Assembly: GCA_003210115.1 (NCBI GenBank)
Contig: QCNM01000005.1
Span: 1 to 40,886, forward strand
Origin: SAR116 cluster bacterium AG-426-A06
Lineage (GTDB): Bacteria > Pseudomonadota > Alphaproteobacteria > Puniceispirillales > Marisalimonadaceae
Length of the DNA: 40,886 nt
Direction: 5' to 3'
Shown here: positions 30,531-34,255 of the stretch, one piece after another
Layout: every line of letters starts with the position of its first letter
Numbering within the stretch: position 1 is the first letter of the stretch
Position numbers and translations under genes: made by a program
Notes under the pieces: generated by a model
What the model was told of the DNA's origin: nothing
Database searches by the model: none
What the model saw: only the letters and a program-made list of their open reading frames with translations

Positions 30531-31837
30531 ATTGGTAGTATTATTCTAGCCCTTAATCCACCTAATGGACTATCATCTAAAATTAGTTCGCCACCATGCG
30601 AAAGTATGGAGTTATTTGCAATTGAAAGTCCAAGTCCAATACCTCCTGTATTTTTATTTCTTGAATGTTCCAACCTATTAAATGGTAGTAATGCCTCCTC
30701 TCTTTTGTCACGAGGTATTCCTGGACCATTGTCATCAATTATAACTTCGCAATGATCATCAAATAATCGAGTTGAAATTTTAGCTTTTCCAGCATATTTA
30801 ATAGCGTTATTCAACAAATTTATTAATGCTCGATTAATTGATCTTACTTGCATAGGAAAAATGGGCAAGTCAGATGTGGGTGGAGATATTTCAATTTTAT
30901 TTAAGCTAGGATCTGACGATTTGGCTGCTAGTTGAACTATTTTAAATAAATTTGCTTCGACCATTTCCTCTTCTCTATCATCTTTTGCAAACTCTAAATA
31001 ACCTTTAATCATTTCTTCCATTTCGTCCAGATCTTCTCCTAAATTATTTTTGAAATTAGTATTTTCATTGAGTAATTCTAGTTGTAATTTCATTCTTGTT
31101 ATTGGAGTTCTCAAATCATGACTTACACCTGCAAGTAATTCCATTCTTTCTGTAATTTGTTTTTTTATTCTATGTCTCATAGCTTGAAAAGCTCTACCAG
31201 CTAATCTTACTTCGGTAGCACCTTCAATATTATAATTTTTAACATCTCGACCAAAACCAATCTGACGAGCAGCATTCGCCAAATTTAAAATTGGTCTAAC
31301 TTGACCTCTTAGAAAAATTATTGCAATAGAAAATAAAATTACTGACGAACCAATAGACCATATAATAAATGTTAGACCGGTAGATGCAAATAACCGTTTT
31401 TTTTCAATTGTCATTCTTACAATACCATTAGCTAATTGTATATCAGTAACTATTTGGCCAGTATTTTCTTGAGTTGATAAATAAAAAGGTTTTTTTATTC
31501 TTAAAAATAAAGCATCTCTGAAATTGAAAAATTTTTTGTCTAAATTTTGATTTGGTTTTAATATTCCTCCTTCTAGCCAATAAAATATAAAATTAAAATA
31601 TTGTCTTGCTTTTGCAGCAGATAATGACCGTTCATCTTCAGAGGGATTAGAACCCAGTTCGTCAATTAAAAGTCCTATATCATTTGCAAGATTTTTTGAC
31701 ATATGTCTTGAGACAGAGTCCCAGTGTCTTTCATAAAAAATAACAACAGATATTATTTGAACCAATATTATAGGAACAAGTATGATGGATAACATTCTTC
31801 CAAATAAACTTTTTGGAGTAATGTTTCTAAGCCTCAT
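30527..31837 (-). CDS. Sensor histidine kinase (EnvZ-like, HAMP domain)
   Basis: Two TM segments, GVSHDLRTPITRMKLQLEL H box, INRALINLLNNAIKYA N box, IDDNGPGIP, GGIGLGLSI. Confidence 0.93.
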   Translation of the reverse strand: MRLRNITPKSLFGRMLSIILVPIILVQIISVVIFYERHWDSVSRHMSKNLANDIGLLIDELGSNPSEDERSLSAAKARQYFNFIFYWLEGGILKPNQNLDKKFFNFRDALFLRIKKPFYLSTQENTGQIVTDIQLANGIVRMTIEKKRLFASTGLTFIIWSIGSSVILFSIAIIFLRGQVRPILNLANAARQIGFGRDVKNYNIEGATEVRLAGRAFQAMRHRIKKQITERMELLAGVSHDLRTPITRMKLQLELLNENTNFKNNLGEDLDEMEEMIKGYLEFAKDDREEEMVEANLFKIVQLAAKSSDPSLNKIEISPPTSDLPIFPMQVRSINRALINLLNNAIKYAGKAKISTRLFDDHCEVIIDDNGPGIPRDKREEALLPFNRLEHSRNKNTGGIGLGLSIANNSILSHGGELILDDSPLGGLRARIILPI

Positions 31838-32549
31838 TGCTAAATTCTCTATTATTAAAAGTATTTAATTTCCATCCAAAGCCCCTTATAGTTTGAAGAT
31901 ATGTTGGAAATCTTTGATCTCTTTCAATTTTTTTTCTTATTCTAGTTATTGCAACATCAATTGATCTATCTTCCATTTTTCCACCTAACATTTTATTCAA
32001 ATCATCTCTAGAGAGAGTTTTATTTGGCATTTTTGCAAAGCATTTTAATAAATTTTGTTCCGAAGTAGTAAGATGTATCGATAAACCATTCTTGTAAAGA
32101 TTTAAGGAATCCATATTAAAGAAAAATGGACCAAACTCTAAATTTGAACTAGGTTTTATTTTATTAATATAAGAATTTCTTTTTAAGATATTTTTTATCC
32201 TTAATAATAGTTCTTTAGGTTGGAAGGGTTTTGATAGATAATCATCAGCACCAGTTTCTAATCCATCAATTCTATCTTGAGTAGAGGACATTGCTGTTAA
32301 CATTAAAATTGGAACTCTACTTTTTTTTCTTATTTCTTTTAAAAATTGAAGTCCTGTTTTTCCAGGCATCATTATATCTAAAATAATTAAATCAAAGATT
32401 ATACTACTCATTAAATTTTGAGCGTCATCAGCGTTAGAAGCATCTGATACTAAAAATTCATTATTTTTTAAAAAATCACTTAAAAGAGTTCTCAATTTTT
32501 GATCATCATCAACAATTAAAATATGTGTATTAATAATAAACCTCTTCAA
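31827..32549 (-). CDS. OmpR-family response regulator
   Basis: HILIVDDDQKLRTLLSDFL, LIILDIMMPGKTGLQFL, ADDYLSKPFQPKELLLRI; winged-helix C-term SIDVAITRIRKKIE...IRGFGWKLN. Exact start uncertain. Confidence 0.95.
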   Translation of the reverse strand: MKRFIINTHILIVDDDQKLRTLLSDFLKNNEFLVSDASNADDAQNLMSSIIFDLIILDIMMPGKTGLQFLKEIRKKSRVPILMLTAMSSTQDRIDGLETGADDYLSKPFQPKELLLRIKNILKRNSYINKIKPSSNLEFGPFFFNMDSLNLYKNGLSIHLTTSEQNLLKCFAKMPNKTLSRDDLNKMLGGKMEDRSIDVAITRIRKKIERDQRFPTYLQTIRGFGWKLNTFNNREFSNEA

Positions 32550-33543: not shown

Positions 33544-34002
33544 TCAAATCCATTTTTTGAGGGCTTTGATTTCTTTTTTATCTTGGATTACCCATTTTTT
33601 TTCGCCTTCTAATTCTTCTAATTTCCAAAATGTAGCATTTGATTTTAAATAATCCATGATAAAGTTACATGCATTGAATGCATTCTGTCTATGTTTTGAA
33701 CTCACTCCAACGTAAACAATTTTATCTTTAGGAAATAACTTACCTACTCTATGTATAATAGAAGCATAATTAATATCCCATTTTTTAAAAGCCTTTTCTG
33801 CTATTTTTAAAATTTCATTTTCTGTCATTACAGGATAGTGTTCTAATGTCATTGATAAAATGTTTTTATTATTTTTGTCTTTAGCTCTAACAGTGCCTAA
33901 AAAGTTTACTATTGCTCCAGTATTATTTTTTAAAAGAAACTTATTTTCTCGTTCAATATTAAAAGATTTTTTTTGAATTTTAATTTTGATTTTTCTTGTT
34001 AT
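33544..34002 (-). CDS. moaE: Molybdopterin synthase catalytic subunit MoaE; probable ATA (non-ATG/GTG/TTG) start
   Basis: Called ORF (33544..33852) covers only the C-terminal 102 aa. Manual reverse-strand translation extends the frame with TRKIKIKIQKKSFNIERENKFLLKNNTGAIVNFLGTVRAKDKNNKNILS, which supplies the missing MoaE N-term (GAIVNFLGTVR). ATA at 34002-34000 lies 5 nt after GGAGG. Confidence 0.85.
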   Translation of the reverse strand: MTRKIKIKIQKKSFNIERENKFLLKNNTGAIVNFLGTVRAKDKNNKNILSMTLEHYPVMTENEILKIAEKAFKKWDINYASIIHRVGKLFPKDKIVYVGVSSKHRQNAFNACNFIMDYLKSNATFWKLEELEGEKKWVIQDKKEIKALKKWI

Positions 34003-34003
34003 T

Positions 34004-34255
34004 TTAACCTCCTGTAACAGGAGGAAAAAAAGCTATTTCATCATCATTTCTAATTTTTGTAGATTTTGAAATATAAATTTTATTTTGTGCCACTTTGATA
34101 GTAGCACGTTTACTAAATGCTTTTTTATATTGTTCATTTTTTGTTATTAAAAAATCAATTAACTTTTCTGGGGTATCTATATCTGGGGAAATTGAGATTG
34201 TTTCTTCAGATTTACCTACAATGTCTTTTACCCATGAAAAATATTTAATGATCAT
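34004..34255 (-). CDS. moaD: Molybdopterin synthase sulfur carrier subunit MoaD
   Basis: MIIKYFSWVKDIVGKSEE...IRNDDEIAFFPPVTGG with C-terminal Gly-Gly. Confidence 0.93.
   Translation of the reverse strand: MIIKYFSWVKDIVGKSEETISISPDIDTPEKLIDFLITKNEQYKKAFSKRATIKVAQNKIYISKSTKIRNDDEIAFFPPVTGG
34008..34013 (-). promoter_or_regulatory. Shine-Dalgarno AGGAGG for moaE, embedded in the MoaD C-terminal Gly-Gly codons
   Basis: Reverse strand ACAGGAGGTTAAAATA: GGA GGT TAA is the end of moaD and AGGAGG sits 5 nt before the ATA of moaE. Confidence 0.7.

Follow-up and report, generated by a model that had tools for sequence, protein, structure and literature searches.

A conserved ATA codon as the probable start of moaE in a genus of SAR116 bacteria

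The moaD-moaE junction and its reading frames

The window considered here is a 40,886-nucleotide stretch of DNA from SAR116 cluster bacterium AG-426-A06, in which moaD and moaE lie next to each other on the minus strand. Their upstream neighbours are pgsA-like and uvrC genes, preceded in turn by an open reading frame that, named by eye, is presumably uvrB. The features of the junction are as follows.

34033..34035, minus strand: in-frame TAG, the upstream end of the moaE frame, read from the sequence
34004..34255, minus strand: moaD, C-terminal end ...PPVTGG (TIGR01682 moaD above cut-off; ThiS family)
34008..34024, minus strand: inverted repeat CCTCCTG-TTA-CAGGAGG, a predicted fold that can pair the Shine-Dalgarno sequence within the moaD tail
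34008..34013, minus strand: AGGAGG Shine-Dalgarno (SD) sequence, made up of the MoaD Gly-Gly codons plus the third base of the preceding Thr codon
34000..34002, minus strand: proposed moaE start codon ATA, present in 6/6 genus members
33544..34002, minus strand: moaE, encoding the catalytic subunit of molybdopterin synthase; counted from the proposed ATA it has 152 codons (Pfam MoaE, PRK10678, 1fm0_E)
33544..33852, minus strand: truncated MoaE, an ATG-started ORF of 102 aa without Pfam MoaE positions 1-42
33546-33544, minus strand: moaE stop codon, read from the sequence

The 3' end of moaD reads ...CCT CCT GTT ACA GGA GGT TAA, with TAA at 34006-34004, and a single base separates this stop from the ATA. 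The moaE frame, which is in a different phase from moaD, is open from 34032 to 33544, and its first 50 codons include no ATG, GTG or TTG. Near-cognate codons in this upstream part comprise one CTG, the ATA, an ATC and several ATTs. A first-pass annotation of the interval 33544-34013, which was correctly delimited, had reported that the extension up to the TAG is free of standard starts and that the ATG-started ORF lacks the first third of MoaE, and both observations hold. Translated from ATA, the protein carries a full-length MoaE domain, matching Pfam PF02391 over profile positions 1-113 of 114 (E 6.5e-35) and E. coli MoaE (1fm0_E) with E 5.2e-33. The ATG form matches positions 43-113 only and misses the GAIVNFLGTVR stretch. 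The NCBIfam equivalog PRK10678 aligns over profile positions 3-150, at a score of 146.6, below its cut-off of 175.

The SD sequence ends 5 nt before the ATA and is strong for the genus. In a relative (G002), GGAGG precedes the standard start in just 6/446 surveyed genes, and any of GGAG, GAGG or AGGA in 97/446.

Conservation of the ATA codon within and beyond the genus

The genus is represented by 13 genomes, all incomplete drafts, of which six hold a complete moaE. An alignment of their junctions, as the first-pass annotation had proposed, shows ATA at the moaE start position in 6/6, with GGAGG retained at a spacing of 5 nt in every case, although the kinship among the six sequences means that this conservation does not represent six independent events. 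ATA by itself is not rare here, since 36% of Ile codons in the genus are ATA. No standard start precedes the conserved core in any of the six, apart from GTG in three and TTG in one (G009); the GTG found in three of the six genes lies inside the core, as the valine codon of IVNF, and the TTG sits 21 codons downstream of ATA. The frame is closed by a stop five codons ahead of ATA in G012 and G009, so that from there to codon 7 ATA is the only near-cognate codon that is conserved. Apart from ATA, moaE of the genus offers no conserved candidate start that is preceded by an SD sequence.

The sequence that follows ATA behaves as coding sequence. The next codon is ACA in the window, the other five genomes having TCC, TCT or TCA, and across the six genomes 72 of the 152 codons are invariant, 41 show synonymous changes only and 39 change the residue. 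Judged by these codon changes, the moaE frame is under purifying selection from the codon following ATA. In addition, the N-terminus of E. coli MoaE falls within one residue of ATA in the alignment, and the PRK10678 alignment begins at profile position 3. Synonymous change after ATA and alignment with known MoaE N-termini are what translation from ATA should show, without proving the start codon. A requirement for MoaE is also to be expected, as MoaC was found in 7/13 and molybdenum-hydroxylase domains in 10/13 of these incomplete genus genomes.

Outside the genus, a standard start codon lies near the N-terminus in all 54 moaE loci examined, and none has ATA (0/54). Within the same family, ATG follows the moaD stop immediately in 22/22 loci of genus g4, while GTG is used in 2/2 loci of g2; in family f3, ATG, GTG or TTG lies near the N-terminus in 30/30 loci read. 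A census of the pattern "moaD tail, stop, one nucleotide, start" across 136 genomes of the order, the sole source on start codons in families f2 and f4, found the ATA version confined to the six genus members. ATG, GTG or TTG stands in the same register in 14 genomes, all of them from other genera. For instance, the G100 junction has CAGGAGGTTAAA-ATG, placing ATG in the ATA register (G100, CCGCCTGTAACAGGAGGTTAAAATG; window, CCTCCTGTTACAGGAGGTTAAAATA).

The register itself varies by genus, with the start one base past the moaD stop here and in g12 and immediately after it in g4.

These comparisons also bear on the proposal that the Gly-Gly tail of MoaD drives an ATA-started moaE. The comparison lends good support to the arrangement itself, but the placement of the SD sequence is not special: GGAGG or GGGGG occurs at the same place in many order-mates that start with ATG or TTG, and GGA is the first Gly codon of the MoaD tail in 12/22 loci of g4.

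Initiation at AUA and alternative explanations

Initiation at AUA is the best reading of the moaE junction and very probably the correct one. The full proposal, in which AUA at 34002-34000 is the start, AGGAGG places the ribosome and an ancestor switched to AUA, is probable at nearly the same strength. Under this proposal, AGGAGG would position a ribosome coming straight from the end of moaD one base upstream, or else a 30S subunit, and initiator tRNA-fMet would read AUA through two Watson-Crick pairs, so that the protein would begin with fMet. Initiation would be expected to be weaker than at AUG and sensitive to IF3. The AUA would have arisen in the ancestor of the genus, as relatives carry ATG, GTG or TTG at or beside the position. 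Translation of moaD may further aid moaE by opening the hairpin that covers the SD sequence.

As a selected regulator or coupling device, the hairpin was rejected. Its Pro-Pro and Gly-Gly codons are naturally complementary, which largely accounts for the pairing, and no excess covariation was found among 51 moaD tails, where pairing at the free third positions is no more frequent than in shuffles (17 against 18.7 and 24 against 20.5). Recoding of AUA or an unusual initiator tRNA was also set aside: the aragorn tRNA list of G002, which is incomplete and therefore weak evidence, holds only CAU tRNAs as Met and no UAU.

A start slightly further inside, giving a somewhat shorter protein, is improbable but draws on real conservation, as the ATT at codon 9 is invariant in 6/6 and codon 7 is ATT or ATC throughout the six genomes. 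However, neither candidate has an SD sequence upstream (AAAATCAAA), the sequence from ATA onwards already shows synonymous changes and a match to the N-termini of E. coli MoaE and PRK10678, and the starts of order-mates fall at the ATA register rather than at codons 7 or 9. Those same order-mates, which start with ATG or TTG at this place and require no shift, also count against programmed +1 frameshifting at GGT TAA, the end of moaD. Such a shift would produce a MoaD-MoaE fusion for later cleavage, like mycobacterial MoaX, a known fusion that requires cleavage after Gly-Gly (PMC4326299). The +1 relation of the two frames and the SD-like sequence at the stop would suit it, but tRNA-Gly would have to re-pair from GGU to GUU, or from GGC to GCU in G005, a poor slip, and we regard this route as quite improbable.

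Decay of moaE, with the ATG-started fragment or nothing as its product, is less probable still. The only standard start does lie on the 102-aa fragment, but the full-length frame is kept in 6/6 with the codon conservation described above, each genome has one MoaE, and MoaC and molybdenum-hydroxylase domains occur in the genus. The main alternative named by the first-pass annotation was a sequencing or assembly error hiding an ATG or GTG. The window does come from an incomplete draft assembly (57% complete), but ATA without a usable ATG, GTG or TTG recurs in six separate assemblies, including the contigs AG-914-E17, AH-287-A08, AH-326-A17 and MED-G100 from separate projects or cells, and this explanation is in effect refuted.

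For initiation at AUA itself, the first-pass annotation had suggested that a weak start could keep MoaE low relative to MoaD. It is equally possible that the strong SD sequence compensates for the weak start, because MoaD and MoaE function as a 2:2 complex (PMC4326299). The ATA start may be regulatory or simply tolerated.

Related starts and known precedents

AUU and AUC starts of infC underlie the classical autoregulation of IF3. The IF3 gene was found in 11/13 genus genomes, and in 9/11 of those read (L191-L201) infC has no standard start, the single option in G011 and G003 being a TTG well upstream. GGAGAAATTAGTATAAAC is present at infC in 8/11, with one-base variants in G001, G005 and G007, and the infC start is likely ATT or ATA.

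Other candidates came from a survey of starts that set G002 in full (1.406 Mb) against 796 kb of G011 and covered 500 non-overlapping gene pairs. Its raw list consisted mostly of short antisense ORFs, which were removed partly by eye. Beyond moaE, this comparison yielded one gene, listed here together with the regulator that adjoins moaE.

G000:C1:24958-26511; G002:C15:31688-33241; G011:C14:3447-4999, minus strand: pccB-like acyl-CoA carboxylase subunit
31827-32549, minus strand: OmpR-type response regulator adjoining moaE, likely start near 32534-32532

The top NCBIfam match of the pccB-like subunit is mmdA, under its cut-off. The N-terminal part of the gene has no ATG, GTG or TTG in G002 and G011, and AAGGA followed by ATTAGAAAAACNAG is found in 10/13 genus genomes; the gene probably starts at AUU, the ATT after AAGGA. 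The response regulator presents a weaker case. Its start is TTG in the window and GTG in G011, with none standard in G005, G002 and G012, and an ATT start after AAGAGG or ACGAGG, which fits the usual receiver N-terminus, is possible. It could be imagined that infC, moaE, the pccB-like gene and perhaps the response regulator start only at AUA or AUU and that the level of IF3 thereby adjusts the synthesis of molybdenum cofactor together with acyl-CoA carboxylation, but we consider this unlikely.

As members of the near-cognate AUH class, infC and moaE may be expected by analogy to share repression by IF3, although only infC belongs, as far as is known, to the IF3 feedback loop. Natural AUA starts with strong SD sequences have been identified in S. 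aureus, in infC, ccpN and citZ (PMC13009471). In reporters, expression from the non-canonical starts was about 10% of that from AUG in poor medium and, for ccpN, as much as 30% in rich medium (PMC13009471). These genes resemble moaE in combining AUA with a strong SD sequence at proper spacing, and S. aureus and B. subtilis share a conserved AUA in ccpN (PMC13009471). They differ in that ribosome profiling, together with reporters for ccpN and citZ, supports the S. aureus starts, whereas the moaE start is predicted by sequence comparison. Furthermore, moaE is a metabolic gene of an uncultured alphaproteobacterium, with its SD sequence inside the end of the upstream coding region.

Another precedent is Streptomyces sigR, with a GTC start and repression by IF3 (PMC5472188). 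Both sigR and moaE have lineage-conserved non-canonical starts, belong to a two-gene partner pair and are misannotated by gene callers; in sigR, however, the codon is GTC rather than ATA and its regulatory role has been shown experimentally. Mycobacterial MoaX (PMC4326299) resembles moaD-moaE in tying expression together at the Gly-Gly junction, but it is a single polypeptide needing cleavage, whereas here a stop codon splits the two genes. A literature search by title and abstract found no paper on the moaE start codon.

These observations have practical consequences for annotation. Gene callers limited to ATG, GTG and TTG would trim MoaE of this genus by a third, dropping GAIVNFLGTVR, and would likewise mis-call infC and the pccB-like gene. 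Moreover, G100 (ATG) and G000 (ATA), with equal SD sequence and spacing, offer a natural comparison for SD compensation of a weak start. The genus-conserved AUA start of moaE very likely adds to a kind of start already known elsewhere in bacteria, and an AUA fixed genus-wide in an ordinary metabolic gene would lengthen the short list of natural AUA starts.
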